The notes under the pieces are model-generated. The model worked only from the letters and a program-made list of their open reading frames with translations, ran no database searches and was not told where the DNA came from. The position numbers and the translations under genes are program-made. Below are positions 11,384 to 32,877 of a stretch of 64,000 bases of DNA, one piece after another (position 1 is the first letter of the stretch; the number at the start of each line of letters is the position of its first letter). Origin of the DNA: Rhizobium sp. LC145 (GTDB lineage Bacteria > Pseudomonadota > Alphaproteobacteria > Rhizobiales > Rhizobiaceae); the NCBI RefSeq assembly GCF_001005825.1, contig NZ_LBHV01000009.1:1-64000 (forward strand), read 5' to 3'.

Positions 11384-12469
11384 CTAGGCCAGCTTGGCTC
11401 GGCTGACAGTGTCGTCGGTGAGACGCCTTTCGCTTGCCGCATCGAAGAAGTGAAGGTTCGGCGATGCAATCGAAATGGGAATTTGCTGCCCTGGCTCGAA
11501 GTCAACGCGATCATTGACGACGCAGGTGATTTCGATGCCTCCGATCTCGGCGAGGACATACGTCTCGGCGCCGGTCGGTTCGATGACCTTCACAACCGCC
11601 GCTGTGCCTCCTTCAGCATTGACGATCACGTTCTGCGGACGAATGCCGATAACGACTTCGCCAGCGTGTCCGCTTGGAACGGCCGGAAGCGCCAGACGTT
11701 CGCCTCCCGGCAGGCGCATCGATTGCCCCTCTATAGTGCCCTTAAGGAAATTCATCGACGGCGAGCCGAGAAACCCCGCCACGAACATGTTGGCGGGACG
11801 ATCGTAGAGTTCGAGCGGAGTACCGATCTGCTCGACACGGCCTCCGCGCAAGACCACGATCCGGTCGGCCATTGTCATGGCCTCGATCTGGTCGTGGGTG
11901 ACATAGATAATCGTCGAGCCCAGTCTCTGGTGGAGCGCCTTGATTTCCCCCCGCATCTGCACGCGCAGCTTGGCGTCCAGGTTCGAAAGCGGCTCATCGA
12001 AGAGAAAAACGTCAGGATCGCGAACAATGGCGCGCCCCATGGCGACACGCTGCCTCTGACCGCCGGACAGTTGCGAGGGCTTTCGCTGCAGGAGCGACGT
12101 CAGGCCAAGAACTTCCGCCGCCTCGGCCACCTTCTTCTGTATCTCGGCCTTCTTCACGCCAGAAATCTCCAGCGAGAAGCCCATATTCTGCGCAACCGTC
12201 ATCTGCGGATAGAGCGCGTAGTTTTGAAACACCATCGCAATGTTGCGATCCTTCGGGGAGAGCGCGTTCACGATACGGTTCCCGATACTGATCCGCCCGT
12301 CGGAAATGTCCTCAAGTCCGGCGATCATTCGCAGAAGTGTGGATTTCCCGCAGCCGGAGGGGCCGACCAGAATGAGAAACTCTCCATCCGTGATGTCGAT
12401 GGATACGTTCTGGATCACGTCCAGTGCGCCGAAGCTCTTGCGCAGATTGGAGACCTGAACCGGTGCCAT
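11384..12469 (-). CDS. Sugar ABC importer ATPase, MalK/UgpC type
   Basis: The 361-residue protein has Walker A GPSGCGKSTLL (about residue 38), signature [14 protein letters not shown], Walker B VFLFDEPLSNLD and H-loop YVTHDQ, followed by the C-terminal OB/TOBE regulatory region (about 235-361). This is the CUT1 importer ATPase type that works as a homodimer with two separate permeases. ATG at 12469 follows GAGGAG. The gene is last in the operon of binding protein, two permeases and apiosidase-like enzyme, 11 bases after the latter. Confidence 0.93.
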   Translation of the reverse strand: MAPVQVSNLRKSFGALDVIQNVSIDITDGEFLILVGPSGCGKSTLLRMIAGLEDISDGRISIGNRIVNALSPKDRNIAMVFQNYALYPQMTVAQNMGFSLEISGVKKAEIQKKVAEAAEVLGLTSLLQRKPSQLSGGQRQRVAMGRAIVRDPDVFLFDEPLSNLDAKLRVQMRGEIKALHQRLGSTIIYVTHDQIEAMTMADRIVVLRGGRVEQIGTPLELYDRPANMFVAGFLGSPSMNFLKGTIEGQSMRLPGGERLALPAVPSGHAGEVVIGIRPQNVIVNAEGGTAAVVKVIEPTGAETYVLAEIGGIEITCVVNDRVDFEPGQQIPISIASPNLHFFDAASERRLTDDTVSRAKLA

Positions 12470-12480
12470 GCTGCAACTCC

Positions 12481-13998
12481 TCAATGCTTCTTGCGGGGAC
12501 GCACTCGTACCGCGAGATACGGCTTGCCCGGCAGTTTCAATCCAAACGCCGCCGCGAACTGGTTGGTGATGTGCGATCCTCCGGTAATGCGCTGCGGATG
12601 GACTTTCGGAAGTGCCGCCTTCTCCAGCGGCGTGATCGTCATATTCCAGACGTCGATCAGATCAATGTCCCATTCGCCGTCTTCCTCGGGCAGGCCAAGC
12701 GCCCACTCCACCGGCTGATGCTCGGAAAAATAGATATACCGCACATCACCGTCGCGGACTGCCGAGACGCGCTTGAACGGCGTGCCCCGTTCGAGCAGCG
12801 GGGTCAATCCGTTGACGGCATCCTCTTCGAGCAACCGGCGCAGGAATGCGATCCGGGGTGGCGCATCCCCGCGGAGCGTGCCGCCCTTTGCCCACCAGAG
12901 TTCGTCATTCTCGTGCATGAAGGTTTCACCATGGCCGATATAGCCGCCGCGGCAAAGCGTCAGCCAATACCGGTTGACCAGCTCATGGCCGTGGATATTG
13001 CCCCACTCCTTGGGAATGTTGCCCTCATATTCCGGTTCGTCATTGATAACCGGCTTGCCGTAGGCCTGACGCCAATCGAGAGTTTTCTTGACATCCCAGT
13101 TCTGGATGCAGACGTGGTCGACCCATGGCTTGCGGTGATCGTAATTCTTGTCCACGTCACCGTTGTGGATCGATTTTGGATGGCGAAGCGGATCGCCCTC
13201 CTCGATGATCTGGAAGAACCGGTCCCAGCGCTCCATCGGCTTGGTGTCCAGCAGGAAATCATATTCGTTCGCAAGTGACCACCAGACGTTTCGATAGGCG
13301 GCGATGCGGGCGACGATATAGCGGAGATAGCGGAAGTCCTGCTCCTCGGTCATGGTGCAATAGCCCCATCGGTCGTAGGGATGGAAGAGGATGATATCCG
13401 CTTCGATGCCCATTTCCATTAGACGTCCGATCTGCGTCTCGAAGTGCCGGAAGCTTTCGAAGTTCGGCCGATCCATGTCGTGGCTGCCGTCGGCGCGCTT
13501 CTCGTAGATGTCGTGCAGCGGTTCGTTGGTGTTGTAGATGTAGTCCTTGGGAAAAACTCCCATGCGGATCTTATTGAACGGCGCTGTCTTCAGGGTCTCA
13601 AGCGTCTGCTCTTGCAGTTCCATCGTCTGATGGGTCCAGGCATAGCAGGTCGTTCCGAAAGGAAGATAAGGCTTGCCGTCGGCATAAGCGAAATGAAACT
13701 GGTTGCGGACCCTGACAGGTCCATGGACCCCGTTCCTGGCTGGTCCGACCGACAGCGTCCCCTGGAGCCCGGAAAGCTCATTGGCGCTGGATGCGGTCAC
13801 GAACCGCCATTCCCCTTCCGTGTCAGGGCAGAAACGCACCTTGTAGACACCGTCTCCGTCATAGAAGCCGGGCACTTTTATCTCACGGTTGTCGAGCGAG
13901 AATGTCGCGCCGAACGAAATGTCGAGATAGGGGTTGCCACTGGAAGGACCAGTTGCTGAAAATTCGAAAACGTCCCAGCGGCTTCGTTGCTCAGCCAT
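12481..13998 (-). CDS. Apiosidase-like glycoside hydrolase (DUF5060-DUF4038-DUF5605)
   Basis: The 505-residue protein has an N-terminal beta-sandwich of DUF5060 type (about 5-70, ending DTEGEWRFVTAS), a central TIM barrel of the DUF4038/apiosidase family (about 95-400) and a C-terminal DUF5605-like beta domain (about 425-500). The barrel shows FGTTCYAWTHQ, then WWSLANEYDF (candidate acid/base) and VINDEPEYEG (candidate nucleophile). There is no signal peptide, so it acts in the cytoplasm on an imported glycoside. Characterised members of this fold (GH140) release D-apiose from rhamnogalacturonan II side chains. It sits inside a CUT1 importer operon next to an apiose-type catabolic operon. Exact linkage specificity is unknown. 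Confidence 0.8.
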   Translation of the reverse strand: MAEQRSRWDVFEFSATGPSSGNPYLDISFGATFSLDNREIKVPGFYDGDGVYKVRFCPDTEGEWRFVTASSANELSGLQGTLSVGPARNGVHGPVRVRNQFHFAYADGKPYLPFGTTCYAWTHQTMELQEQTLETLKTAPFNKIRMGVFPKDYIYNTNEPLHDIYEKRADGSHDMDRPNFESFRHFETQIGRLMEMGIEADIILFHPYDRWGYCTMTEEQDFRYLRYIVARIAAYRNVWWSLANEYDFLLDTKPMERWDRFFQIIEEGDPLRHPKSIHNGDVDKNYDHRKPWVDHVCIQNWDVKKTLDWRQAYGKPVINDEPEYEGNIPKEWGNIHGHELVNRYWLTLCRGGYIGHGETFMHENDELWWAKGGTLRGDAPPRIAFLRRLLEEDAVNGLTPLLERGTPFKRVSAVRDGDVRYIYFSEHQPVEWALGLPEEDGEWDIDLIDVWNMTITPLEKAALPKVHPQRITGGSHITNQFAAAFGLKLPGKPYLAVRVRPRKKH

Positions 13999-14025
13999 AG
14001 TTCACTCCTCAATATGCTATGATGT

Positions 14026-14901
14026 TCAGCCCTTGACGGCGCCCGATGTCAGGCCGCTGACGAAGTACCTCTGGAAGATCATGTAGACGACGACGGCAGG
14101 GAATACGGTCATGGCGATGGCTGCGTTCAACTGGCCGTAGTCGGTCGAGAACTGTCCCTGGAAGGACATGAGCCCCAGCGGCAGCGTCCACATGTTGCGA
14201 TCCTGAAGCAGGACCAATGCCATGGCGAACTCGTTCCAGGTGGAGACAAAATCCAGGATGAGCAGAGCCGCCAGGACCGGCAGGGAAATCGGCAGGAAGA
14301 TCCTGCGGAAAACGGTCAGATGCGAGGCACCGTCGATGAGCGCCGCTTCCGACAATTCCTTCGGGACCGCTTTGAAGAAGCCGTGCAGGATGAAGACCTG
14401 ATAGGGAACCCCGAACGCCAGGTAGGGCAGGATGACACCCGGATAAGTGTCGATGAGCCCGAAACCGTTCACCAGCGTAAAAATCGGTGCCAGCATGACC
14501 TGAAACGGGATCATGGCGCCGAACAGAAAGAACAGCAGGAGCAGCTTGCTGAACCGCAGTTTAATCCGCGCCAGCGCATAAGCGGCCATTGCCGAGAACA
14601 TCAGCCCCAGCGGGACCTTGATGACGGTGATGATGGCGCTGTTTCGGAATGTCGTTGCGAAATTGCCGCGCTCCCAGGCGCCGGAGAAATTGCTCCAGGC
14701 CACGGTCTCGGGCGGCGTGAAGGCATTGGTCGCCATAATCTCTGCATTGGATTTCAGCGCCGTGAAGGCGATGAGCACGACCGGGGCAACCCAAAGCAGG
14801 GCAAAGACGACCAGCACCAGCCATAGAAGGATGAGGAAGGGATCCCGCCGGCGCTTTATCTCAACCGTATCGGTTTCAAGATGCGTTGTCATAACCGTCA
14901 T
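14026..14901 (-). CDS. Sugar ABC importer permease, MalG type
   Basis: The 291-residue inner-membrane protein has six predicted helices, starting with FLILLWLVLVVFALLWVAPV, and the CUT1 EAA coupling loop EAALIDGASHLTVFRRIFLP near residue 190. It pairs with the MalF-type protein encoded immediately upstream; start and preceding stop overlap (ATGA). The apiosidase-like gene follows after 27 bases. Confidence 0.93.
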   Translation of the reverse strand: MTVMTTHLETDTVEIKRRRDPFLILLWLVLVVFALLWVAPVVLIAFTALKSNAEIMATNAFTPPETVAWSNFSGAWERGNFATTFRNSAIITVIKVPLGLMFSAMAAYALARIKLRFSKLLLLFFLFGAMIPFQVMLAPIFTLVNGFGLIDTYPGVILPYLAFGVPYQVFILHGFFKAVPKELSEAALIDGASHLTVFRRIFLPISLPVLAALLILDFVSTWNEFAMALVLLQDRNMWTLPLGLMSFQGQFSTDYGQLNAAIAMTVFPAVVVYMIFQRYFVSGLTSGAVKG

Positions 14902-15797
14902 TCGGCGGCTCCTTCATCGCGTTGCGACCAGCGCAGATAGGGGACGACGATCGTCAGGGTGACCAAGAGGAGAATGACCGAGATGGCGGAGCCCCGGCCG
15001 AAATCGAAGATCTGCATCGATTGCATGAACGCCCACAGCGCGAGCATCTGGGTCGATTGTGCCGGTCCACCACCGGTCATCCCATAAACGATATCGAAGG
15101 CCTTCAAGGACGAAATGGTCGACAGGACGAGGACGATCGCCAGCGTGACGCGTAGAGCGGGCAGCGTTACATGCCGGAAGACCTGCCACCGGTTGGCGCC
15201 GTCGATGCGCGCCGCTTCTACGAGCGAGCGGTCGACCCCCTGCAGGCCAGCCAGGAAAAGCACCATGGAAAAGCCGACATATTGCCAGGTGTAGGCGACG
15301 AACATGGAATAGAGGGCGATCTCACGGTCGCCGAGCCAGTCTTGGATCCAGGCCTGGAGGCTCAGACTTGTCAGTACCTGATTGAAAAGCCCGAAAAAAG
15401 GATCGTACATCCACCGCCACATCGTTGCGACCGCAATCGGCGCGATGATGACCGGAAGATAGTAGATCGCGCGCATCGGCACGCGACCGAAAAGCTGCTC
15501 GTTCAATCCGAGCGCGAGCAGAAGGCCGATCGTGGGCGGAAAGATGACCGCCAGGATCGTCCAGGTTATCGTGTTGCGCAGCGCAACCCAGAAGACGGTG
15601 TCGCTGGTCAGAATGTAGCGATAGTTTTCAAGACCGACCCACTCCCGTTGGGGGTCGAGACCGTTCCAATGCTGAAAGCTCAGGATGACGACCTCGATCA
15701 TCGGCCAGATCGCGAACGTCGCATAGACGGCGAAGGCAGGACCGATCAACATGAGAGCTTGAGTCCGTGGGGACTGCATGGCTTTCGATTTCAACAT
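14898..15797 (-). CDS. Sugar ABC importer permease, MalF type
   Basis: The 299-residue protein has six helices (first: LMLIGPAFAVYATFAIWPMI) and the EAA loop EAARIDGANRWQVFRHVTLP near residue 210. ATG at 15797 gives a short cytoplasmic tail typical of the family. An upstream ATG at 15857 would add 20 residues with no ribosome site, and 15779 is a third option. The gene follows the binding-protein gene by 92 bases. Confidence 0.9.
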   Translation of the reverse strand: MLKSKAMQSPRTQALMLIGPAFAVYATFAIWPMIEVVILSFQHWNGLDPQREWVGLENYRYILTSDTVFWVALRNTITWTILAVIFPPTIGLLLALGLNEQLFGRVPMRAIYYLPVIIAPIAVATMWRWMYDPFFGLFNQVLTSLSLQAWIQDWLGDREIALYSMFVAYTWQYVGFSMVLFLAGLQGVDRSLVEAARIDGANRWQVFRHVTLPALRVTLAIVLVLSTISSLKAFDIVYGMTGGGPAQSTQMLALWAFMQSMQIFDFGRGSAISVILLLVTLTIVVPYLRWSQRDEGAAE

Positions 15798-15889
15798 GAG
15801 AGTTCCGCTTGTCCAAATCCCCGATCCCGCGTGCGGGTAGCGGTCTCCGCGCCGCATGTTGGACGCGCAGACGTCAGGTCGTAGCCAGC

Positions 15890-17128
15890 TTACTTGCGGT
15901 TACCGATGAAGGTCTGCATCGCGCCGGCCGCAGCTTGCGGCTCGAGCCTGCCGGCGGCGACGTCGTTGATGACGCGGAAATATTCTGTCGTGACATCCAG
16001 GGGAAAGGCCTGATCGCCGTTGACGAAGGTGCCCGTCGCCTCCGCGAAGATTTCCGTCCATTCCTTATGCATGGCGGATGCGTCGTCCTTGAGCTTGACC
16101 TCCTTGTTCACGGAAAGAGCTCCGAAGACGCCCGCGATTTCAGTCTGGAACTCGGTGGAGGTGAAAGAGTCGATGAATTCCGCCGCCAGATCAGGCTTGC
16201 TGGTTTTGGATGAGATGTAGAAATACTCGGCGAAACCATAGAGGCGACCTGTGCCGTTCGGGAACGGAAAGACCCCGTAATCGTCGAGGTTGCCGCCTTC
16301 CTTGATCTGGGACACCAGCCAGTCGCCCTCGAGCATCATCGCCGCGCGCTTCGCCAGGAACAGGGTGAAGGATTGCTTCTGATCGACACCCATGAATGGT
16401 GACAGGATGTAATTCTGCCCCCACATCTGCATCTCGGCGAACGCTTTGGTCGCGCACTCCGTCTTGCTCCAGTCTGCCTGCAGCGATTTCAGTTGGTCGT
16501 GCAGCTCCGCGCCGCATGTGGTCTCCAGGAGCTCGTCCATCAGACGCATGAGATGCCAGTTGACGGAACCCCCGAACGTGAAGGCTGGAATGCCCGCTTC
16601 CTTCAGCTTCTTTGCGGCCTCGACGAGTTCCTCATAGCTCTTGGGTTCTTCGGTGATGCCGGCCTGCTCGAACATGGCTTTGTTATAGTAGAGACCCTCG
16701 CCGGAGAAGCGGAAGGGCACGCCATGTTTGCCGGATCCATAGCTGCTTGCAAAGGCAAGAGAGGGGGCGGTCAGGCGGTTGTCCCAGCCATATTGGGAAT
16801 AATAGGGCGTCAGGTCCCTGCTCAGGCCAGCCTTGACGTATTCACCGCCAAGACCAAGCCCGGCCCAGCTCATGTAGACATCGGGTCCCTTGTCGGAACC
16901 AGCGGCGACCCGCAACGCAGTCTTGTGTTCGTCGACGCCGCGCTGAACGATTTCAACATTCACGTCGGGATGCGATTTTTCGAAGCGCTCCGCAGCGGTC
17001 TGCAGCGCTTTGACCTGGGATTCGGCGGAATAGCTGATGATCCAGACCGTCAGATCTTCAGCCTGTGCCGTCCCTGTGGTGGCGATGGCGAGCGCGGATA
17101 CAGCCAGTAGCCTCTTCAAAGTCTTCAC
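15890..17128 (-). CDS. Sugar ABC importer binding protein, family 1 (MalE/UgpB type)
   Basis: The 412-residue exported protein has a Sec signal (VKTLKRLLAVSALAIATTG, cleavage near AQA) and the family 1 solute-binding fold: ERFEKSHPDVNVEIVQRGVDEHK, VPFRFSGEGLYYNKAMFEQAG, and MMLEGDWLVSQIKEGG. The start is a GTG at 17128 behind GGAGGAGATC; the in-frame ATG at 17155 would add nine residues ahead of the signal. Family 1 proteins usually bind oligosaccharides or glycosides, which fits an apioside feeding the cytoplasmic apiosidase-like enzyme of the same operon. Confidence 0.9.
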   Translation of the reverse strand: MKTLKRLLAVSALAIATTGTAQAEDLTVWIISYSAESQVKALQTAAERFEKSHPDVNVEIVQRGVDEHKTALRVAAGSDKGPDVYMSWAGLGLGGEYVKAGLSRDLTPYYSQYGWDNRLTAPSLAFASSYGSGKHGVPFRFSGEGLYYNKAMFEQAGITEEPKSYEELVEAAKKLKEAGIPAFTFGGSVNWHLMRLMDELLETTCGAELHDQLKSLQADWSKTECATKAFAEMQMWGQNYILSPFMGVDQKQSFTLFLAKRAAMMLEGDWLVSQIKEGGNLDDYGVFPFPNGTGRLYGFAEYFYISSKTSKPDLAAEFIDSFTSTEFQTEIAGVFGALSVNKEVKLKDDASAMHKEWTEIFAEATGTFVNGDQAFPLDVTTEYFRVINDVAAGRLEPQAAAGAMQTFIGNRK

Positions 17129-17181
17129 GTGGATCTCCTCCCGTAGATCGTACAAGCCTTCGCGAGAGACTATTCAGATAT

Positions 17182-17220
17182 TTTTGTTTGATGTCAAATT
17201 CTTTCGAATGATTTTGTTTG
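17182..17220. promoter_or_regulatory. Direct repeats in the MalE-type promoter region
   Basis: TTTTGTTTG occurs at 17182-17190 and again at 17212-17220, exactly 30 bp apart (three helical turns), with ATTCTTTCGAAT between them. CTTTCG is also the core of the inverted sites at 22727-22901 in the other operon. This suggests one DeoR-type repressor for both. The rest of the 404-base gap (17129-17532) holds no gene that could be recognised. Confidence 0.45.
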
Positions 17221-17532
17221 GCGCCGAAAATGCCAGCGTCGGCCTCGTATTTCCCCGAGACTCATTTCGCTTCGATATCGATAGTTTCGTGAATTGCGAG
17301 CTGGGTAACTCACCGTGGAGCAGCAAAATGCCGTCGCGCTGCGGCAAGCAGCACGAAAAACGGGTGCCAGGCAGCAATCACCGGATTGATCTCATAAGCA
17401 TGCCGTCAGCTTGGCTCATCCGCACTTGGGAATGGTCCAACCTCCGTGCTGGGCACAGCGGAATTCGGCCTCTGCTTGAATGCAATTCTCAAGCAGGGTG
17501 CAAGGAGAGCATGCAGTTGGGGGTGATAGGCG

Positions 17533-18342
17533 CTACTTTGCTATCAATATTTCTATGCCGCGCTTTTCGAATTCCTTTGCATCCCGGTCGGCGATGCCAT
17601 CGTCCGTGATGAACGAATTGATGACGTCGAGCGAGCCGAGGCGCGTGAACGACGACCGGTTGATCTTCGTGGAGTCAGCGACGAGATAGACGTGTGCCGC
17701 AGCCTTGATCATCGCTTCCTTGAGCTGAAGGTCCGCGAAGCTCGGATAGGTCAGTCCGGCATCGAGGGCGACACCGGCGGTCGCCAAAAACAGTTTGCCG
17801 GCAAAGATGTTGCGGAAATACTCGACTGATTTGTCACCGGAGAGCGAAAGCGTCGGCGATTTGAATTGGCCGCCCGGCATATGCACTGCCATCGTTGGCA
17901 CGGATCCCAGTATGATGGCGATGTTCAAGGCGTTGGTGATCACCGTGAGGTCGCGCCGATTGGTCAGCCGCGTGGCGATTTCGGTTGTCGTTGTTCCGGC
18001 GTCGAGGATCAGCGTCTCGCCGTCCTTCACCAGGCTTGCTGCAAGAGCCCCAATCCGGCGCTTCTTGTCCATGTTCTCCTGGTGGTGGAGCGTCATGCTT
18101 CCCGCTTGAGGCGGGGCGGTGTTGAGATAGGCGCCGCCGTGCTCGCGGGTGATGAACCCGTCGTTTTCGAGTCTTTCCAGATCTTGCCGGATTGTCGCTT
18201 CAGATACGCGGAAGGCGCTGGCCAACTCCCGGACGCGGGCGGAACCTTCCTCCTGGAGCCATTCGAGAATACGGCGGCGTCTTGGCTCGGACAGGAGTCC
18301 GACCATCGAGTCTGGGGTAGCCTGCTCGTATTTCGCTTCCAT
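17533..18342 (-). CDS. DeoR-family transcriptional repressor
   Basis: The 269-residue protein has an N-terminal DeoR HTH (about 15-70: EPRRRRILEWLQEEGSARVRELA, then SEATIRQDLERLENDGFITREHGGAYL) and a C-terminal sugar-phosphate sensor (about 85-250) with the DAGTTTTEIA and DKSVEYFRNIFAGKLFLATAGVA blocks. DeoR proteins release DNA on binding a phosphorylated sugar intermediate. The start at 18342 is chosen over 18372 because the shorter form matches family length. It is the last gene of the RbsABC-type operon and faces the MalEFGK-type operon promoter, so it likely controls both; the kinase product of this island is a plausible inducer. Confidence 0.9.
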   Translation of the reverse strand: MEAKYEQATPDSMVGLLSEPRRRRILEWLQEEGSARVRELASAFRVSEATIRQDLERLENDGFITREHGGAYLNTAPPQAGSMTLHHQENMDKKRRIGALAASLVKDGETLILDAGTTTTEIATRLTNRRDLTVITNALNIAIILGSVPTMAVHMPGGQFKSPTLSLSGDKSVEYFRNIFAGKLFLATAGVALDAGLTYPSFADLQLKEAMIKAAAHVYLVADSTKINRSSFTRLGSLDVINSFITDDGIADRDAKEFEKRGIEILIAK

Positions 18343-18438
18343 AGGGACCTGCCTGAACTGAAAGAATCGCAATTACTCGAAAATCTTCGGTTCCCTTTCC
18401 ATAATATCCTTACAGCAACCCTGTGAAGCTTCAAATGC

Positions 18439-19515
18439 TCAATTGACCTGCTGTTGCAGGACAACACGTGCCTGAAGCTTCTGCTGAATTTGGTCGACGA
18501 CGACGGCGGCGATAATGACGACGCCCTTGATCACCGTCTGCCAGAATGAAGAGACGCCCATCATGATGAGGCCGTCGGCGAGAATACCGATCACGAAGGC
18601 GCCGACGATCGTCCCTGCGATGCGTCCGCGGCCACCCGACATGGACGTGCCGCCGAGAACGGCCGCGGCGATCGCGTTCAGCTCGAAGGTTTCGCCGGAT
18701 GCCGGATGGCTTGCCTGCAACTGAGAAGAGATGATCAATCCGACCAGCGCCGCACAAATCCCCGAGAACATGTACACGAACAGCTTTGTCCGATCGACGT
18801 TGACGCCGGAGAGGGCGGCACCCCGTTCATTACCCCCGACGGCATAGATATGACGCCCCAGCGGCGTGCGCGTTGCGAGATAGGCCGCAAGAAGAGCCAC
18901 GATCGCCATGATCCAGACGGATAGGGGAAAGCCGAGGAAACTGCCGGAGCCGATGAGCCGAAAGGTATCGGAACCATATTCCGGATTGCCGGCCAGGTTC
19001 GGAAAGGTACGACCCTCCGAAAAGAGAAGTGCTGCGCCGCGCGCAACATAGAGCGTACCGAGCGTTGCGATGAAGGGCGCAACGTTGAGCTTCGTGATCA
19101 ACAGGCCGTTGATCAGCCCGATAAAGACGCCGACCAGCAGGACGAGAAAACATATCTCGATCGTGTTGAACTGGATACTGTATCCAATACCGATGAAGCC
19201 AAGGTCGATGCCGTATAGCACGAGATAGCCGGCCACCATGGCGCAAAGGCCGACGATGGAACCAACCGAAAGATCGATGCCGCCGGCGATGATGACGAAG
19301 GTCATTCCAATCGCGAGCAGGGCATTCAGCGCGACATGCTTCGAGATGATCAGCATGTTGGCGCCCGTCAGGAAGTTGGGCGCGTAAATGGCGAAGAACC
19401 CGAAAACCAGGATCAAGGCAACGAATGTACGCATGTGCAAAAGCAGCAGAAGTCCGGACGTCTTCGATCCACCGGGTACCGTTTTCTCGCTGCTCACCGT
19501 GTTGATGCTGCTCAT
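18439..19515 (-). CDS. Sugar ABC importer permease, RbsC type
   Basis: The 358-residue inner-membrane protein belongs to the CUT2 permease family: AIGMTFVIIAGGIDLSVGS, APFIATLGTLYVARG and LGGTSMSGGRGRIAGT are the diagnostic blocks, within eight to ten predicted helices. A longer polar N-terminus (about 25 residues) precedes the first helix. The start overlaps the end of the ATPase gene by four bases. It imports a monosaccharide with the ATPase and binding protein encoded upstream. Confidence 0.93.
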   Translation of the reverse strand: MSSINTVSSEKTVPGGSKTSGLLLLLHMRTFVALILVFGFFAIYAPNFLTGANMLIISKHVALNALLAIGMTFVIIAGGIDLSVGSIVGLCAMVAGYLVLYGIDLGFIGIGYSIQFNTIEICFLVLLVGVFIGLINGLLITKLNVAPFIATLGTLYVARGAALLFSEGRTFPNLAGNPEYGSDTFRLIGSGSFLGFPLSVWIMAIVALLAAYLATRTPLGRHIYAVGGNERGAALSGVNVDRTKLFVYMFSGICAALVGLIISSQLQASHPASGETFELNAIAAAVLGGTSMSGGRGRIAGTIVGAFVIGILADGLIMMGVSSFWQTVIKGVVIIAAVVVDQIQQKLQARVVLQQQVN

Positions 19516-21041
19516 TGAATTGCAACCCTGTTGAAATTGGGCGTTGCCGCGGACACTACGTCGGACGCATTGGCGCCGGCCGGAAACTCTCCGGTCAGTC
19601 TGCCATTGGCCATCACCAAAATACGGTCAGACAAGGCGAGAACCTCGTCCAGATCCGAGGTCACGAAGAGGATGCCAAGACCGCTGGCTGCCAGACGGCG
19701 CATGGCGCGAAAGATCTCGGCCTTCGCTCCGATATCGATGCCACGCGAGGGCTCGTCCATCAGGAGGATGCGTGGTTTCGTCATCAGCGCCTTCCCGATC
19801 ACGACCTTCTGTTGATTGCCTCCCGAAAGACTGGAGACAGGATGTTCAAGGCTGGCGACCTTAATCGCCATCTGTTTTACGGATTCGGCGGCCTTGAGAG
19901 CCTCTGCCCGCAGACTGAGGTGCAGGATGCGCGTGAAGTCGCGCAGCGACGAAAGCGTCAGGTTCTCCCGGATCGTCATGATCTGAACCAGGCCGTCACG
20001 CTTGCGGTCTTCGGGAATGAGGGCGAGACCTTTGCGAATGCGGCCGGACACGCTTTTCTCGCGGACCACTTGGCCTCCAATGAAGATGCGCCCGGAGGAA
20101 TTGGGATGCTGGGCCATGACGCATTCAAGGAGTTCCGAACGGCCTGCGCCCATCAATCCATAGAGCCCGACGATCTCCCCATTGCGGACGGAGAGCGAGA
20201 CATGATCGACCGCGTAACCGCCGGCGGCACGGGGCAGGCAGATTTCCTCGACCCGGAAAACCTCGTCGCCCAGCTCGTGTTGTACCGTTTTTGGGAAGTC
20301 CTTGGAGGCGCTGCCGATCATGTTGGTGACGATCCAGGGGATGTCGACACCCTCCATCGACCGCGAACCTGTAACTACTCCGTCACGCAGCACCGTGATG
20401 TAGTCACCGATGCGGATCAACTCCTCCAGGCGGTGCGAGATATAGACGATGCCGACGCCCTGCCGCTTCAGGTCCTCAATCACCCGGAACAGAACCTCAA
20501 CCTCGGCTGCCGACAGCGCGGAGGTCGGTTCATCAAGAATAAGAATGCGCGCATTTTCCGCCAGAGCCTTGGCGATTTCGACGATCTGCTGCTGCCCTAT
20601 TCGCAGATTTCCAAGCGGCGTATCCGGATCGATATCCTGCTCGAGGCGCTTCATTAGCGCACGGGCGGCTGCGGTTTGAGCGCTCTTGTTGATGTGCACC
20701 CCTGCGAACGTCTTCTCATGGCCAACGAAGATATTCTCGGCCACAGTCATGTTGGGAAAGAGGTTAAGCTCCTGAAAGACGATGCCCACGCCATGCCGGG
20801 CAGCGTCGTTCTTGTCGGCGAAAACCACTGGTTCACCATCGAGGAGAATCGTGCCGCCATTGAGCTGCTCGACACCGGCGATCACCTTCATAAGCGTCGA
20901 CTTGCCCGCGCCGTTCTCGCCAACCAGGACGTTCACAGCGCCCATGCGCAGATCGAAATCGACGCTCTTGAGCGCCTGCGTGCCAGGATAGATTTTTGAG
21001 CCGTTGCGGATTGACAGACCGACCGGGTGGGCCTCGTTCAT
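19512..21041 (-). CDS. Sugar ABC importer double ATPase, RbsA type
   Basis: The 509-residue protein has two fused ABC domains as in RbsA/XylG. Domain 1 (about 8-245) has Walker A GENGAGKSTL and Walker B ILILDEPTSALS. Domain 2 (about 260-500) has a degenerate Walker A (GLMGAGRSELLE) as normal for the family, signature LSGGNQQKVVIGKAL and ILLMDEPSRGID. Start overlaps the DUF2291 stop (ATGA). It drives pentose-class uptake with the neighbouring permease. Confidence 0.93.
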   Translation of the reverse strand: MNEAHPVGLSIRNGSKIYPGTQALKSVDFDLRMGAVNVLVGENGAGKSTLMKVIAGVEQLNGGTILLDGEPVVFADKNDAARHGVGIVFQELNLFPNMTVAENIFVGHEKTFAGVHINKSAQTAAARALMKRLEQDIDPDTPLGNLRIGQQQIVEIAKALAENARILILDEPTSALSAAEVEVLFRVIEDLKRQGVGIVYISHRLEELIRIGDYITVLRDGVVTGSRSMEGVDIPWIVTNMIGSASKDFPKTVQHELGDEVFRVEEICLPRAAGGYAVDHVSLSVRNGEIVGLYGLMGAGRSELLECVMAQHPNSSGRIFIGGQVVREKSVSGRIRKGLALIPEDRKRDGLVQIMTIRENLTLSSLRDFTRILHLSLRAEALKAAESVKQMAIKVASLEHPVSSLSGGNQQKVVIGKALMTKPRILLMDEPSRGIDIGAKAEIFRAMRRLAASGLGILFVTSDLDEVLALSDRILVMANGRLTGEFPAGANASDVVSAATPNFNRVAIQ

Positions 21042-21661
21042 GGCGCAACCTCGATGGATACCGGCATAATGGTCGGCTTCTCGCTGGCGGAGCGTATCAC
21101 GGCGGCGCCGAGGAAGTTCAGGCGTTTGCCTTTCAGGGCGATATCGGGTCCGAAAAGCTTGGAAACCGCCTTGTCGTTCAAGGCGCGGCCGAGCTTCGCG
21201 TACTCGATCTGATCCCGGAAGGTTGAAAAATCGTAGAGATTGGTCGTATCGCGCAGCGCGGTTCCCTTGACCACCGGCCCGAGCTGGAGCGTCGCATCCG
21301 CCTGCCCGTCACCATCGAGGTCGATAGCCGCTACCGCGGCCTTGGAAGCGCGATTTTCATCCACCACGGTGGCCGTACCCTTGACGGGAAAGTTCCAGCC
21401 GCCGCCTGCGCCACCGACACGCATACCGTATTGTCCGCCTGCTTCATCGAGGCCACGTGCAATCGCCTCTTGCAAAGCTGTGAGCTCGACGGCCTTCTCC
21501 TTGAGCGCGGGGACGAGCTTTGCCTCGAATGTCGTCTCCACGAGCTCGGCAATCGGGTCGACGGGCGCACCTCCTTCGCCTTGGTTGGTCTTCACCAGCT
21601 TGCAGCTGGCAAGCGATATGCAGGCGAGCACGCTTGCAGCGAGCAGAGTTCTCATCTTCAT
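21038..21661 (-). CDS. DUF2291-family lipoprotein
   Basis: The 207-residue protein begins with a lipoprotein signal (LLAASVLACISLASCKLV, lipobox LASC) and continues as a DUF2291 protein with VDPIAELVETTFEAKLVPALK and YDFSTFRDQIEYAKLGRALND. It would be anchored in the periplasm. DUF2291 genes are repeatedly found in RbsABC-type operons, often between binding protein and ATPase, as here; an accessory role in uptake is inferred but no biochemical function is established. Confidence 0.85.
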   Translation of the reverse strand: MKMRTLLAASVLACISLASCKLVKTNQGEGGAPVDPIAELVETTFEAKLVPALKEKAVELTALQEAIARGLDEAGGQYGMRVGGAGGGWNFPVKGTATVVDENRASKAAVAAIDLDGDGQADATLQLGPVVKGTALRDTTNLYDFSTFRDQIEYAKLGRALNDKAVSKLFGPDIALKGKRLNFLGAAVIRSASEKPTIMPVSIEVAP

Positions 21662-21689
21662 GACGTGTCGACTTTATCTGGTTAGAAAC

Positions 21690-21717
21690 CCACCCGGACC
21701 GTTGGTGGTCCGGGTGG
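21690..21717 (-). terminator. Strong intercistronic hairpin after the RbsB-type gene
   Basis: An 11-bp perfect stem (CCACCCGGACC with GGTCCGGGTGG) closes a 6-base loop, 12 bases after the binding-protein stop on the minus strand, followed by GTTTCTAACC. It probably sets higher expression of the binding protein than of the downstream importer genes. Confidence 0.6.
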
Positions 21718-21729
21718 CGCTTTCGCTGC

Positions 21730-22683
<954 letters not shown>

Positions 22684-22726
22684 TTAACGAACCCACCCTC
22701 CAGTGGTTTTCATATTCTATCGATTG

Positions 22727-22901
22727 CTTTCGTTTCCTGTCAATATTCTTTTAATCTAGGTCGATTTATGCGCCGCATAGAAGGTGGAAAATTGGCGTGC
22801 GGCGGCGCATACACGAGGCTAGAGTGCGTGGAATTGGCCGCGAGGGGAAAAACTTCTTGAACCCAGTCATGATACATGCGATGAAACGCAACAAACGAAA
22901 G
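22727..22901. promoter_or_regulatory. Divergent control region with paired CTTTCGTTT / AAACGAAAG sites
   Basis: CTTTCGTTT (22727-22735) lies 56 bases before the binding-protein start, and its exact complement AAACGAAAG (22893-22901) lies on the isomerase side. Similarity extends to AAACGAAAG-N2-ATC on both. ACGAAA-type words are common in rhizobial DeoR-family operators. The pair would let the linked DeoR protein repress both directions. The rest of the 431-base gap (22672-23102) holds no gene; a GGAGGA site precedes the isomerase start. Confidence 0.55.
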
Positions 22902-23102
22902 AGATCAAAAGTATTCAAAAGGCGGCTTTTTTTGAGAACGCGGCCTTAGGAGGAGATGTGCCGGCTCGTAGCAACTGCCTGAGCTTGCCGCGGCAGTGCA
23001 CTGGAGGAAGCTTGGGCCGAGCTCAATCGCGCCACTGCAGTTCTCCGCTCCTGCCGTCGGTGCCTTGTCCTTTCCAATAACTGAGTCAAATGGAGGAACC
23101 TT

Positions 23103-24083
23103 ATGACCACCCCACGTTTCGGCGCCGGAATCTGGCACTTTGCCACCTACCTCGACCGCTACGCCACTGACGGTTATGGCATCCCGCGGAGCGTCATCGA
23201 GGCCATAGACCTTGCCGGTCAGGTCCGGGACCTTTCGGTGGTCGACATCAATTATCCTTTTTTCGGCGGCGACTTCTCCAATGCCCAGATCAAGGAGGCG
23301 CTGGATCGCAACAAGCTCGGTGTCATCGGCATCACGCCGGAAATCTACACGCGTGAATTCGTCAAGGGCTCCTTCACGAATCCCGATGCGGGCGTCCGCC
23401 GTCGCACCCATGAGCTGGTGACCGAAGCCTGCGATCAGGTTCGCTATTTCGGCGCCGACTACGTGAAGCTGTGGCCGGGGCAGGACGGCTGGGATTATCC
23501 CTTCCAGGTCGACTACGGCACACTTTGGAAGCATTCGCTGGATGGAGTTGGCCAGCTCGCCAGTGAGAACCCGGATCTTAAATTTGTCATCGAGTACAAG
23601 CCGCGCGAGCCGCGGGTGCGAATGAGTTTCGGTTCTGTCGCTCGCACGCTTCTTGGCATCGAGAAGATTGGGTTGCCCAATGTCGGCATCCTGCTCGACT
23701 TCGGCCACGCCATCATGGGCGGTGAATCGGCTGCCGACAGCGCTCAGCTCGCGATCGACTATGGGCGGCTGTTCGGCATGGATGTCAACGACAACTATCG
23801 CTCCTGGGACGACGACCTGGTTGCCGGCAGCCTGCACCCGATCGAGATCTTCGAGTTTTTCCACGTGCTTCGGAAGAACAAGTGGGAGGGCGTGTGGCAA
23901 CTTGATCAGTTCCCCTTCCGCGAGGACAGCGTCGCCACCGCCAATCACGCCATCGACTTTCTCAAGGCTGCAGCGAAAGGTCTCGATGCATTGGACGTGG
24001 ATGCGCTCAAGGAGGCGCAAAGCCGCCATGACGCGATTGGCGCGCTGAAGATCGCTCAGAAAGCCCTGTTCGGGGCGATGTAG
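23103..24083 (+). CDS. TIM-barrel sugar isomerase, probable D-apiose isomerase
   Basis: The 326-residue protein is an AP-endonuclease-2-like TIM barrel of the xylose/rhamnose isomerase type. Candidate metal ligands lie in FVIEYKPREPR (Glu), GILLDFGHA (Asp, His), GMDVNDNYRSWDDDL and WQLDQFPF. Translation starts at an ATG behind GGAGGAA. It heads the plus-strand operon of isomerase, split transketolase and FGGY kinase. In the published D-apiose transketolase pathway an isomerase converts D-apiose to D-apulose; this gene fits that step. Family assignment is firm, the substrate is inferred from context. Confidence 0.75.
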   Translation: MTTPRFGAGIWHFATYLDRYATDGYGIPRSVIEAIDLAGQVRDLSVVDINYPFFGGDFSNAQIKEALDRNKLGVIGITPEIYTREFVKGSFTNPDAGVRRRTHELVTEACDQVRYFGADYVKLWPGQDGWDYPFQVDYGTLWKHSLDGVGQLASENPDLKFVIEYKPREPRVRMSFGSVARTLLGIEKIGLPNVGILLDFGHAIMGGESAADSAQLAIDYGRLFGMDVNDNYRSWDDDLVAGSLHPIEIFEFFHVLRKNKWEGVWQLDQFPFREDSVATANHAIDFLKAAAKGLDALDVDALKEAQSRHDAIGALKIAQKALFGAM

Positions 24084-24130
24084 GCGCGGGAAACGGCAGG
24101 AGCCAGATCGGCATTGAAAGGCCTATTACC

Positions 24131-24952
24131 ATGTTGAAGAACGATATCGTCGACACGATCAGGCAGAAAGCCTTGTGGATGCGCCGCCGCGCCTTCACCA
24201 TGGTGTTCGATGCACAGCTCGGGCATCCGGGTGGGGATTTCTCGGCGATCGACATCATCGCAACACTCTATTTCGGCGTCATGCACTATGACCCGAGGAA
24301 GCCGGATATGCCGGAGCGGGACCGCTTCATCATGTCGAAGGGACACGCAACCGGTGCGCTCTATACCGCCCTTTGCGCCGCCGGTTATTATCCGGAAGAC
24401 TGGCTGGCCACCTATATGCAGCCGAACTCGAAGCTGAACGGCCATCCGAACCGCAACTATCTCCCGGGCGTGGAAACCAATACCGGCCCGCTTGGTCACG
24501 GCATGCCCGTCGGTGTCGGCATAGCGATTGCCGGACAGTTGACCAACAGCGATTATCGCACCTTTGTCCTGACCGGTGATGGTGAGTTGCAGGAAGGCTC
24601 GAACTGGGAAGCGGCAATGACTGCCGGCCACCGCAAGCTCTGTAATTTCACGCTGATCGTCGATCGCAATCGGCTGCAACAGGGGATGGGGACGGAGGAG
24701 ACAAATGGTCTCGATCCTCTGGACGACAAGTTCCGCGCTTTCGGATGGGATGTGAAAACCGTCGATGGCCATGACGTGCAAGCGTTGCTGGACGTGCTAT
24801 CGACGCCGCCCAGCGGACGGTCGAAGCCGCTCTGCGTGATTGCCAATACCGTCAAGGGCAAGGGCGTGTCGTTCATGGAAAACAAGGCTTCGTGGCATCA
24901 TGGGGTGCCGAATGCGGACCAATTTGAAACGGCAATGAAGGAACTGGTGTGA
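24131..24952 (+). CDS. Transketolase N-terminal subunit, probable apulose-4-phosphate transketolase subunit A
   Basis: The 273-residue protein is the thiamine-diphosphate half of a split transketolase: LGHPGGDFSAIDIIATLYFG, SKGHATGALYTAL, ETNTGPLGHGMPVGVGIA and the ThDP-Mg2+ motif GDGELQEGSNWEAA with VDRNRLQQ. It must pair with the next product to form one active enzyme. In D-apiose catabolism the two-subunit enzyme transfers a ketol unit from D-apulose 4-phosphate to glyceraldehyde 3-phosphate, giving xylulose 5-phosphate and dihydroxyacetone phosphate. A general pentose-phosphate role is less likely given the linkage to a dedicated importer and kinase. Confidence 0.85.
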   Translation: MLKNDIVDTIRQKALWMRRRAFTMVFDAQLGHPGGDFSAIDIIATLYFGVMHYDPRKPDMPERDRFIMSKGHATGALYTALCAAGYYPEDWLATYMQPNSKLNGHPNRNYLPGVETNTGPLGHGMPVGVGIAIAGQLTNSDYRTFVLTGDGELQEGSNWEAAMTAGHRKLCNFTLIVDRNRLQQGMGTEETNGLDPLDDKFRAFGWDVKTVDGHDVQALLDVLSTPPSGRSKPLCVIANTVKGKGVSFMENKASWHHGVPNADQFETAMKELV

Positions 24953-25914
24953 TGGCCGCGCCCGCTGTAAAACACGAAGGCACCCACGATTGTCGTGACG
25001 CCTGGGCGCGCACGCTCGAAGAGCTTGCGGCGCAAGATCCACGCATTGTCGCCGTCGTCAACGATTCCGTCGGCTCGTCGAAGCTTGGGGGCTTTCAGAA
25101 GAAGTATCCGGACCGCCTGGTCAATGTCGGCATTGCCGAGCAGAACATGGTCGGTGTCGGGGCAGGTCTTGCCAATGGCGGTCGGATCCCCTTCGTCTCC
25201 GCCGCTTCCTGCTTCCTGACGGGCCGTGCGCTCGAACAGCTGAAGGCGGACATCGCCTATGCCAAATTCAACGTCAAGCTCATCGGCCAATCATCCGGCG
25301 TCGCATATGGCGAACTGGGGCCGACCCATCACTCTATCGAGGACTTCGCTTGGCTTCGACCACTGGGCAGCATCACCGTTGTCGTTCCCGCAGATTCTTG
25401 GGAAACGGTCGAGGCTGTCAAATGGGCCGCCGTCCACGACGGTCCTGTCTATATCCGGTTGAGCCGCATGCCGGTGCCGGATATTGCCGTTCCAGACCGT
25501 GTATTCCGGCCTGGCAAAGCTGAACTCGTTCGCGAGGGCAGTGATGTGACCATCATAGCCTGCGGCACCATGGTTCACCTGGCGGTCGCGGCGGCGGCCG
25601 AACTGGAGGCAGGAGACATCTCGGCACGTGTCTTGAACATGGCCACTATCTCCCCTCTCGACGAATCGGCCGTCTTGGCCGCAGCGCGCGAAACGGGGGC
25701 AATCGTCACGGTCGAGGAGGCCAGCATCCATGGAGGCCTCGGCGGTGCCGTTGCCGAACATACGGCGGGCAATCTGCCGGTTCCGGTCGAGCGGATGGGG
25801 TTTCCGGGCTTCGTTCCGACCGGGTCGGTGGAATGGCTGTTCGAGCATTTCGGCCTAACGGCCGCCGGCATCGCCAGAACGGCCCGGAAGGCGATCGGGC
25901 GCAAACGCGGATGA
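24952..25914 (+). CDS. Transketolase C-terminal subunit, probable apulose-4-phosphate transketolase subunit B
   Basis: The 320-residue protein contains the pyrimidine-binding domain (RIVAVVNDSVGSSKLGGF, VGIAEQNMVGVGAGLA with the catalytic Glu that protonates ThDP) and the C-terminal transketolase domain (VTIIACGTMVHLAVAAAAELE). ATG at 24952 overlaps the stop of subunit A by one base; a GTG at 24949 is an alternative. Translation is therefore coupled with the partner subunit. The downstream kinase gene overlaps its stop by four bases. Confidence 0.85.
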   Translation: MAAPAVKHEGTHDCRDAWARTLEELAAQDPRIVAVVNDSVGSSKLGGFQKKYPDRLVNVGIAEQNMVGVGAGLANGGRIPFVSAASCFLTGRALEQLKADIAYAKFNVKLIGQSSGVAYGELGPTHHSIEDFAWLRPLGSITVVVPADSWETVEAVKWAAVHDGPVYIRLSRMPVPDIAVPDRVFRPGKAELVREGSDVTIIACGTMVHLAVAAAAELEAGDISARVLNMATISPLDESAVLAAARETGAIVTVEEASIHGGLGGAVAEHTAGNLPVPVERMGFPGFVPTGSVEWLFEHFGLTAAGIARTARKAIGRKRG

Positions 25915-27377
25915 GTGGCGGGTATGTCATCGCCATCGACCAGGGCACGACCAACACGAAAGCCATTCTGGTCGATGCCGCCGGCGGCTTGGTTGCCAAG
26001 GCTTCGGCGCCTTTGAGGTCTCATTATCCTCGCCCGGGATGGGCTGAGCAGTCCGCCGAAGATATCTGGACCAGTGTTCAGACCGCGATTGCCGATCTCG
26101 TCCGGTGCGGTACCTTCGAGATCGAAGGACTTGCAATCGCCAACCAGCGCGAGACGCTCGTCGTCTGGGACGCAAAAACAGGCAACCCAATCGCGCCGGC
26201 AATTCTCTGGCAGTGCCGGCGCACCACTCCGGCATGCGAAGCACTGATCGCCAATGGCGCGAACACGCGCGTAGTGGAAGCGACTGGCCTTTCCATCAAT
26301 GCCCTGTTTCCGGCCTCCAAGCTGGCTTGGATCCTGCAAAACGTGTCCGAGGCTGCGCCGCTCGCCGCGCAAGGTCGGCTCCGTGCCGGTACGGTCGACA
26401 GCTGGCTCCTGTACAAGCTGACCGGCGGAGCGATATTTTCCACGGACCATTCAAACGCCTCGCGTACGCAGCTTTTCCACACGGGCAACCTTCAATGGGA
26501 TGAGAGCCTTTGCGACCTATTCGAGGTGCCGTTATCGGTATTGCCGGAGGTAAGACCATCCGACAGCCGCTTCGGTGAGGTGGCGGAAGGGACAACGGCG
26601 CTCAAGGGCGGGGTCCCAATTCTCGCCATGATGGGCGATAGCCATGCCGCCCTTTATGGCCATGGCGTCCGCGCGCCGGGCCTGGTCAAGGCCACCTATG
26701 GCACCGGCTCCTCGCTGATGACCCTCACATCAAGCCGCGTGCTGTCGCATAGCGGGCTCTCCAGCACGATCGCCTGGAGCGACAAGAACGGAGTAGCCTA
26801 TGCGCTGGAAGGCAATATCACCGTATCCGCTCAGGCGGCCGCCTTCGCCGCCGATGTGCTCGGGCTTGCCGATGCCGGCGCTCTTTCCGACCTCGCGCAG
26901 ACGGTAGCGGATTCGGCTGGGGTCGTCTTCGTACCGGCCCTTGCGGGGCTCGGTGCTCCCCATTGGAATGACAGGGTATCGGGTACAATCTCCGGCATGA
27001 CGCTGGCCACGACCCGGGCTCACATCGCTCGTGCAACCTTCGATGCCATAGCGCTGCAGGTGAGCGATGTGTTCCTGGCAATGGAGAAAGACATAGGCGC
27101 GCAACTGCATGGCCTGCTGGCCGATGGCGGTGCATCCGCAAACGACTTTCTCATGCAATTGCAGGCAGATGTTCTTGATCGCTCCGTCACGCGCAGCGGC
27201 GCGGCCGAGGTGGGGGCTCTCGGTGCCGCAGCAATGGTGTTGACCGGTTTGGGAGAGCCTTCGTCTTTATCCAATATGCGGCAGGAGCTGTTTGAACCTC
27301 GCCAGGATTCGGCCGCGTGGCGTTCGCAAGTCATTCGGAACTGGCGATCGCTGCTGGCACTGCTGACGGCGGCTTGA
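25911..27377 (+). CDS. FGGY-family carbohydrate kinase, probable apulose kinase
   Basis: The 488-residue protein has both FGGY domains: N-terminal IAIDQGTTNTKAILVD with PGWAEQSAEDIW, and C-terminal PALAGLGAPHWNDR, GMTLATTRAHIARATFDAIA and LLADGGASANDFLMQLQADVL. It phosphorylates a ketose or polyol with ATP in the cytoplasm. The family resembles glycerol and xylulose kinases, but its place after the isomerase and transketolase genes suggests it makes D-apulose 4-phosphate. The ATG at 25911 overlaps the transketolase stop (ATGA); an earlier ATG at 25833 lies inside that gene. Confidence 0.85.
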   Translation: MSGGYVIAIDQGTTNTKAILVDAAGGLVAKASAPLRSHYPRPGWAEQSAEDIWTSVQTAIADLVRCGTFEIEGLAIANQRETLVVWDAKTGNPIAPAILWQCRRTTPACEALIANGANTRVVEATGLSINALFPASKLAWILQNVSEAAPLAAQGRLRAGTVDSWLLYKLTGGAIFSTDHSNASRTQLFHTGNLQWDESLCDLFEVPLSVLPEVRPSDSRFGEVAEGTTALKGGVPILAMMGDSHAALYGHGVRAPGLVKATYGTGSSLMTLTSSRVLSHSGLSSTIAWSDKNGVAYALEGNITVSAQAAAFAADVLGLADAGALSDLAQTVADSAGVVFVPALAGLGAPHWNDRVSGTISGMTLATTRAHIARATFDAIALQVSDVFLAMEKDIGAQLHGLLADGGASANDFLMQLQADVLDRSVTRSGAAEVGALGAAAMVLTGLGEPSSLSNMRQELFEPRQDSAAWRSQVIRNWRSLLALLTAA

Positions 27378-27525: not shown

Positions 27526-28038
27526 ATGGGCATGGAAAGGGACGACAGACGTAACGGCCTCTACGCCACGCATCGCGCCTCTTTGATTTCCTATGCCGCA
27601 TCCTTCGTCGGTTCGAGAGATGAAGCGGAAGAAATCGTCCAGGAGGCGTTTTCGAAGCTTTCCGCGGAAAACCTCGATTGCGTGGAGACCCCGAGCGCAT
27701 ATCTTCGGCGGGTCGTCAGAAATCTCGCACTCAACAGGCGCCGACGGCAAAGATACGAGCTGGCACAGGCCACCGAACATGCGCCTGAGTGGATTCAGCC
27801 TCTCAAAGTTCCCACGCCGGAGCAGGAAGCTGTTTTCAACGATCAGGTGAGGATCATCGCGCAGGCGCTAAGCGAATTCCCTCACCAGACGCGTGTCATT
27901 GTCGAAATGCACCGGTTCGATGGATACACGCTCCAGGAGATTGCCGATCGTCTCGACCTGTCGGTAACGACGGTGCATAGAACCCTGACATCCGCGATGA
28001 GCCAGTTGACCAAACGGTTGACCAGGCACCTTACATGA
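27526..28038 (+). CDS. ECF sigma factor of the FecI/HasI type
   Basis: The 170-residue protein has sigma region 2 (LYATHRASLISYAASFVGSRDEAEEIVQEAF, about 12-45) and region 4 (FPHQTRVIVEMHRFDGYTLQEIADRL, about 120-160, with the recognition helix DLSVTTVHRTLTSAM). There is no sigma 1.1 or region 3, as in extracytoplasmic-function factors. It precedes a FecR-type anti-sigma and a HasR-like receptor, the classic cell-surface signalling order. It should direct RNA polymerase to the two GGAAAA-N14-TTGTC promoters at 28049 and 29186. No such site was seen ahead of its own gene, so it is probably controlled by iron rather than by itself. Confidence 0.9.
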   Translation: MGMERDDRRNGLYATHRASLISYAASFVGSRDEAEEIVQEAFSKLSAENLDCVETPSAYLRRVVRNLALNRRRRQRYELAQATEHAPEWIQPLKVPTPEQEAVFNDQVRIIAQALSEFPHQTRVIVEMHRFDGYTLQEIADRLDLSVTTVHRTLTSAMSQLTKRLTRHLT

Positions 28039-28048
28039 CCGGACAGGT

Positions 28049-28075
28049 GGAAAAAACGCCCGAGCTATTTGTCTA
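28049..28075 (+). promoter_or_regulatory. FecI-type promoter upstream of the anti-sigma gene
   Basis: GGAAAA (28049-28054), a 14-base spacer, then TTGTCTA (28069-28075). Layout and hexamers are the same as at 29186-29212 before the receptor gene and resemble the fecA promoter of Escherichia coli (GGAAAA, then TTGTC). It lies 41 bases before the likely start at 28117. Confidence 0.7.
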
Positions 28076-28116
28076 ATTGGTTACAAACAAAATCTGTTCG
28101 CCGAGGCAAAGAGTGC

Positions 28117-29133: not shown

Positions 29134-29185
29134 TCAACTTCAACATGATCGGAATCAGCTTTTTCGAATTTCGGAGAAAAACATC

Positions 29186-32864: not shown

Positions 32865-32877
32865 GGGAACGAAATTC

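Follow-up and report, generated by a model that had tools for sequence, protein, structure and literature searches.

Plant cell walls and many plant glycosides contain apiose, and among the apiosidases compared here those with an assigned activity are GH140 enzymes. For the free sugar, a transketolase pathway made up of ApsI, AplK and AptAB is described for Pectobacterium and Escherichia coli ST131 in PMC13001218, which cites Carter et al. 2018, and a second, oxidative route is represented by clusters containing oiaX, annotated on R. etli p42f as 3-oxo-isoapionate-4-phosphate decarboxylase. Here we analysed a 64,000-nucleotide stretch of Rhizobium sp. LC145 (contig NZ_LBHV01000009.1, positions 1 to 64,000; hereafter the window), in which positions 11384-27377 hold the minus-strand run rbsB-DUF2291-rbsA-rbsC-deoR-malE-malF-malG-hydrolase-malK and, divergently on the plus strand, genes for an isomerase, the N- and C-terminal halves of a transketolase and an FGGY kinase. 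Our comparisons suggest that this is very probably an island for scavenging D-apiose with two entrances, one for the free sugar through RbsABC-DUF2291 and one for an apioside through MalEFGK and an intracellular apiosidase (Table 1).

In the mechanism that we favour, free D-apiose would enter through RbsABC-DUF2291, and an apiose-bearing glycoside would be imported by MalEFGK; once it is in the cytoplasm, the DUF5060-PF13204-DUF5605 hydrolase would cut it as a retaining apiosidase (Glu/Glu, clan GH-A type). Both streams would yield D-apiose, to be converted into apulose by ApsI, into apulose 4-phosphate by AplK and finally into xylulose 5-phosphate and dihydroxyacetone phosphate by AptAB, and the DeoR protein would repress the rbsB, apsI and malE promoters via a common TCGAAAG/AAACGAAAG-type box. 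This proposal builds on gene content, homology, a recurring neighbourhood, co-occurrence across genomes and a common promoter box, from which we infer the catalytic activities in Rhizobium sp. LC145, the retaining mechanism and the ligands of both importers.

The RbsB protein of the island is best matched by the R. etli RHE_PF00037 protein (5ibq/4ry0, 511 bits), whose structure 5ibq we take to contain D-apiose, and it shares 79% identity with the protein encoded beside oiaX on R. etli p42f; there, the RHE_PF00037 gene lies with genes for DUF2291, RbsAC, a Gfo/Idh oxidoreductase and oiaX. A predicted model of RbsB (pLDDT 57.8) served solely for reading PDB titles. The best solved match of the isomerase is 3ktc (59% identity, 425 bits), which is presumably the Pectobacterium D-apiose isomerase ApsI, and the runner-up, a xylose isomerase, scores 67 bits, so the isomerase does not side with the enzyme of another sugar. 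Identities to the E. coli SE15 D-apiose cluster are 56% for RbsC, 48% for RbsA, 46% for RbsB, 44% for AptA, 43% for AplK, 42% for AptB and 26% for DUF2291; a DUF2291 gene likewise occurs in the clusters of E. coli SE15, R. etli and R. johnstonii. The fit of the isomerase, transketolase and kinase to the known D-apiose route, claimed in an earlier note on this DNA, is on the whole supported. According to PMC13001218, growth on D-apiose was seen in the tested strains of E. coli and E. fergusonii that carry this E. coli cluster, which did not include SE15. With enzyme steps assigned from the naming in that paper and from general background, the free-apiose half appears, by sequence, to be an ordinary member of the known pathway.

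A cluster of this kind might instead serve a sugar related to, but distinct from, D-apiose, such as a branched polyol. We consider this very improbable: identity of the transketolase subunits to AptAB of E. coli SE15 reaches only 42-44%, and the transketolase tree, with its long branches, gives no firm grouping with AptB, which counsels caution, and a similar Agrobacterium cluster differs in composition, but the isomerase is 59% identical to 3ktc and RbsB 79% identical to the protein of the R. etli oiaX cluster. The Agrobacterium cluster (pAspH13-3a, 465420-475441) is a related transketolase-kinase-ABC cluster with two short-chain dehydrogenase/reductase (SDR) genes and a sugar-binding regulator and without DUF2291; its substrate may be D-apiose, as in E. 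coli, or else a related polyol.

The tie between the hydrolase and apiose, which the earlier note drew from adjacency, is supported by several lines of evidence: gene neighbourhoods in other phyla, linkage to a second D-apiose route, co-occurrence in genomes and a promoter box common to rbsB, apsI and malE. Scanning the named genomes yielded 27 hydrolase loci, which were scored as linked when transketolase halves, ApsI, OiaX, ApsD, the neighbouring 620-residue protein or RbsB was found at set identities; these thresholds were chosen after the locus contexts were known, control regions were scored by the same rule, and genes in the compared stretches were picked by a heuristic rather than a gene finder. 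By this rule, 16 of the 27 loci are linked to apiose genes. They comprise five Rhizobium/Endobacterium-type loci in two arrangements, two Alphaproteobacteria metagenome-assembled genomes (MAGs; one linked via RbsB only), a Bradyrhizobium, two Martelella, one Flammeovirgaceae MAG of the Bacteroidota with the hydrolase ~5 kb from the kinase, and five loci in which an isomerase-like gene, both transketolase halves, the kinase and the hydrolase follow one another consecutively (two labelled Lachnospiraceae, one Clostridia and two only 'bacterium'). The count treats as unlinked both L047, with an 87% identical hydrolase on a stretch without apiose genes, and L057, in which RbsA, RbsC and DeoR genes are adjacent.

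Rhizobium sp. LCM 4573 keeps the apsI-to-malK order for every gene in the compared stretch (hydrolase 97% identical), and a different arrangement of this gene set, with an 87% identical hydrolase, occurs in L045, R. smilacinae, Endobacterium cereale and R. wenxiniae, where RbsC and DeoR mostly fall outside the compared stretch. Unlike its relatives, E. cereale shows no kinase match between the transketolase C half and malE; the gene is possibly lost or located elsewhere. Separately, L124, L129, L130 and L131, all of one genus (g114), contain tandem hydrolase pairs near transketolase and DeoR genes, with no MalEFGK matches.

The importer-hydrolase module also accompanies the oxidative route. 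As annotated, MalEFG-hydrolase-MalK continues the OiaX cluster in R. leguminosarum GLR17 and R. johnstonii 3841, and tblastn places the same, unannotated module beside the OiaX cluster of R. tropici CIAT 899. On plasmids, at least eight records carry RbsB and the hydrolase 12-13 kb apart (best 60 of 237 and best 60 of 92 records), and in NZ_CP076854 the two are far apart. Since D-apiose is the shared substrate of two different pathways, a hydrolase found with both would be expected to deliver D-apiose, and we regard this as the strongest argument that it does so.

Counts across genomes point the same way. In an order-level sample of 397 genomes, the hydrolase occurs in 23, an RbsB ortholog (at least 73% identity, best five candidates per genome scored) in 40 and both in 18. 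Apiose-type RbsB is present in 18/23 hydrolase-positive and 22/374 negative genomes (odds ratio 57.6, p=4.5e-16), and a control, the rhamnose isomerase TIGR02629, in 11/23 and 79/374 (odds ratio 3.4, p=0.0077), p-values that are indicative only because the genomes are related. By genus, RbsB occurs in 9/9 hydrolase genera versus 6/132 others, g167 being scored RbsB-positive via genomes other than the hydrolase-bearing G399. The transketolase N half (TkN, at least 60%) or OiaX (at least 67%) is found in 20 of the 23 hydrolase-positive genomes, a count without baseline, made within those 23 only, and at least one of the three apiose markers (RbsB, TkN, OiaX) in 21 of them. Local linkage is seen in 7/22 hydrolase regions of the order sample (up to 20 kb) versus 0/19 control regions on the same contigs (p=0.0098). 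Controls were drawn for 19 of the 22 genomes (not G579, G511 and G436) at a distance of ~100 kb, or 50 kb in G496; regions clipped at contig ends were counted unchanged, and the links of L129 and L130 each consist of one transketolase half at the region edge. In a family-level sample of 199 genomes, 2 of the 8 other hydrolase loci are linked.

Several observations weigh against a tight link. No apiose genes lie within ~10 kb of the hydrolase in 15 of the 22 order-sample regions. In the family sample, a close apsI occurs in 4/199 genomes and the hydrolase in 9/199 (a tenth candidate, in G136, a weak match over 103 residues, was dropped), and the two coincide only in the genome of the window, which taken alone argued against the link; three genomes with a 94-96% identical ApsI are without the hydrolase. 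The ApsI result is put in perspective by the other isomerases and the oxidative route that occur in hydrolase loci. As for the 15 unlinked regions, ten of these genomes have an apiose cluster at another site, within ~11 kb of RbsB: TkN lies ~7 kb from RbsB in G374, G416, G436, G453, G484, G485, G497 and G523, a partial TkN ~7 kb from it in G557, and OiaX ~10 kb from it in G478. A weaker TkN (48%) stands next to RbsB in G369, in G283 and G511 the markers are on separate contigs, and G399 and G579 are without markers.

These results bear on the possibility that the hydrolase and MalEFGK take up an oligosaccharide of plants other than an apioside, such as a manno- or xylo-oligosaccharide, the operons being adjacent only because plant-sugar genes gather on replicons of this kind. 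The best solved match of MalE is a xylo-oligosaccharide-binding protein (3zkk), at 83.5 bits only. This reading nevertheless seems unlikely to us, given that the hydrolase is linked to two different D-apiose routes and, across several phyla, to apiose genes, that its association with apiose-type RbsB exceeds that with rhamnose isomerase, that ten of the 15 unlinked genomes have TkN or OiaX near RbsB elsewhere, and that malE, rbsB and apsI have a promoter box in common.

To locate this box, matrices of 24 and 31 bases were built from the rbsB promoters of seven relatives, with the window excluded, and the 64-kb window was scanned. With the 24-base matrix, the rbsB promoter ranks first (36.1 bits), malE second (14.5) and the apsI side third (8.5), and with the 31-base matrix the apsI side ranks second and the malE promoter fourth. 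Across 19 control regions of 20 kb, the highest scores range from -3.1 to 12.6, so the malE score is only modestly above the controls. Because the -35 element adds to the matrix score, the box was also scanned alone: among 127,968 sites, the apsI side came first, the deoR start (18372) fourth and the malE-upstream box sixth. The malE-upstream box ranks 1 to 5 in six relatives, which, being orthologous, amount to a single repeated observation. Exact AAACGAAAG sites number two against 0.32 expected; a 10-mer operator pattern with two mismatches occurred at chance level only, and no exact 10-mers common to the promoter sets were found at the thresholds used. Of these approaches, scanning with matrices told more than the pattern searches. 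The DeoR protein is the probable binder of this box.

Across 39 compared stretches, gene clusters of at least five members included neither a second glycosidase nor any recognised enzyme for a partner sugar or an aromatic compound; SDR and ROK-family clusters, of no assigned substrate, were seen. Because no conserved partner-sugar enzyme was seen, the imported ligand may be a disaccharide of apiose alone (apiobiose derived from apiogalacturonan, for example) or may join apiose to a common sugar. The same survey makes it highly improbable, in our view, that apiose is released as a by-product and that the cell profits chiefly from the aglycone or the partner sugar, such as a phenolic or a glucoside, although an Aureimonas importer-hydrolase operon adjoining aromatic ring-cleavage genes would fit such a role. 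In that case (Aureimonas sp. AU20 pAU20b, 192854-198639), the operon lies near ring-cleavage and 3-oxoadipate genes, with no apiose marker within 30 kb, and possibly serves the use of phenolic apiosides.

D-apiose scavenging, as proposed for the island, may proceed without ApsI in some genomes. In its place, two Martelella, an alphaproteobacterial MAG, a genome of the same family (L076) and the Flammeovirgaceae MAG have a fucose-isomerase-like protein, whose gene adjoins the apiose transketolase and kinase genes, and in the Lachnospiraceae-type loci the isomerase-like gene encodes a 27% identical relative. On sequence grounds, a second kind of D-apiose isomerase may be represented by these candidate proteins.

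Within the window, all genes named in the earlier note were found where it had placed them, with agreeing Pfam domains, and two starts were refined: malE most likely starts at GTG 17128, preceded by GGGAGGAGAT, and the start of the kinase is placed at ATG 25911, in an overlap with the stop codon of the transketolase. In malK, an internal ATG five codons in, after GAGGAG, may be the true start. The genes for MalE, MalF, MalG and MalK stand in one operon, as in a CUT1 (MalEFGK) importer, and the FGGY kinase and split transketolase are together in another (24131-27377). Downstream of the kinase, positions 27526-36013 encode an extracytoplasmic function (ECF) sigma factor, a FecR-type regulator, a TonB-dependent receptor and ABC exporter-type and HlyD-type proteins. 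Further along, at 43591-52788, a peptide-type ABC importer is encoded together with a DHDPS-family protein, a PfkB kinase and nucleoside hydrolases (PF01156 in each of two overlapping frames); this set likely serves to take up and cleave nucleosides, a parallel import-then-cleave design.

Table 1 Features of the proposed D-apiose island and a candidate isomerase gene of Martelella.
Feature	Position	Strand	Basis
MalK-type ATPase, proposed glycoside importer	11384..12484	-	PF00005, OB_MalK, TOBE_2
Hydrolase, cytoplasmic, proposed intracellular apiosidase	12481..13998	-	DUF5060 + PF13204 'Apiosidase' + DUF5605
MalG-type permease	14026..14901	-	PF00528
MalF-type permease, start uncertain	14898..15857	-	PF00528
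MalE-type periplasmic binding protein, proposed apioside receptor	15890..17128	-	PF01547
malE promoter, DeoR-type boxes ATTCGAAAG + TTGACATCAAACAAAAATATCTGAATAGT	17170..17230	-	matrix scans
DeoR-family regulator, proposed repressor of three promoters	17533..18372	-	HTH_DeoR, DeoRC
RbsC-type permease	18439..19515	-	PF02653
RbsA-type ATPase	19512..21041	-	two ABC_tran stretches
DUF2291 lipoprotein-like protein	21038..21661	-	PF10054
RbsB-type D-apiose-binding protein (by homology)	21730..22671	-	5ibq/4ry0, 511 bits
rbsB promoter, DeoR-type box ATATTGACAGGAAACGAAAGCAATCGATAGA	22716..22746	-	similar in relatives
DeoR-type box array, apsI side	22882..22912	+	matrix scans
D-apiose isomerase, ApsI-like; xylose-isomerase-like TIM barrel	23103..24083	+	PF01261
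Apulose-4-phosphate transketolase subunit A, AptA-like (N half)	24131..24952	+	PF00456
Apulose-4-phosphate transketolase subunit B, AptB-like (C half)	24949..25914	+	PF02779, PF02780
Apulose kinase, AplK-like FGGY	25911..27377	+	FGGY_N, FGGY_C
Fucose-isomerase-like protein, Martelella radicis	L052:3957-5453		PF02952 (tested in L052); counterparts L053, L054, L062, L076

Compared with the GH140 apiosidases (BT1012, 3kzs/5msy; mangrove enzyme, 8t9w), the hydrolase shares the TIM-barrel fold of BT1012 and is matched by the PF13204 model at 3.4e-17, but it has DUF5060 and DUF5605 where GH140 has PF12904, and its N terminus MAEQRSRWDVFEFSATG (starting MAEQRSRW) shows no signal peptide by eye. We rejected the Pfam name 'Apiosidase' as proof of activity and count it as weak support, because no GH140 PDB chain was matched by the hydrolase with phmmer (E up to 1) or with a 30-sequence profile (E up to 10), which calls for caution in assigning its function. 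Its sole match among PDB sequences is 4n0r, the 'putative glycoside hydrolase' BVU_0362 of Bacteroides vulgatus. The residues N244-E245 and D320-E321 are invariant in the family, Glu245 and Glu321 among them, whereas PMC4032388 names Asp187/Glu284 for BT1012; the paper also reports 82% Asp and 17.3% Glu across PF13204.

The family is large, with 7,962 of 8,000 scored database candidates matching the hydrolase at E up to 1e-20; among the best 120 of these 7,962, the names refer to DUF5060, to DUF4038, to a hypothetical protein or to a glycoside hydrolase, and one is called 'Alpha-L-rhamnosidase'. In the open-licence PMC literature we found no report of an activity for the DUF5060-PF13204-DUF5605 family and no description of an intracellular apioside system, of which an earlier mention in subscription literature (e.g. 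Carter et al. 2018) is possible. The chances seem to us about even that these proteins include a new intracellular apiosidase family, separate from GH140, which together with a CUT1 importer would form a portable module for ApsI-transketolase, fucose-isomerase-like-transketolase and oxidative OiaX routes. If so, this would give a testable activity to a large family whose listed matches mostly bear the label 'DUF5060 domain-containing protein' or 'hypothetical', would explain the use of whole apiosides by rhizosphere, and possibly gut, bacteria via a dedicated importer, and would yield a candidate for a new D-apiose isomerase.

With the D-apiose transketolase pathway of E. coli, the island has in common the RbsABC and DUF2291 importer, the split transketolase and the FGGY kinase. 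In PMC13001218, the E. coli cluster has two SDR genes and no apsI, whereas the island has an apsI-type isomerase, as does P. carotovorum in that paper. Unlike the island, the E. coli SE15 cluster has neither a glycosidase nor a MalEFGK importer annotated in the surrounding 40 kb. The oxidative OiaX clusters (R. etli p42f, R. johnstonii pRL12) differ from the island in their catabolic enzymes, and the 30-kb stretch read of the R. etli CFN42 cluster contains no glycoside importer or hydrolase, but they share with the island RbsB, DUF2291 and RbsAC, and those of R. leguminosarum GLR17, R. johnstonii and R. tropici also share the MalEFG-hydrolase-MalK module.

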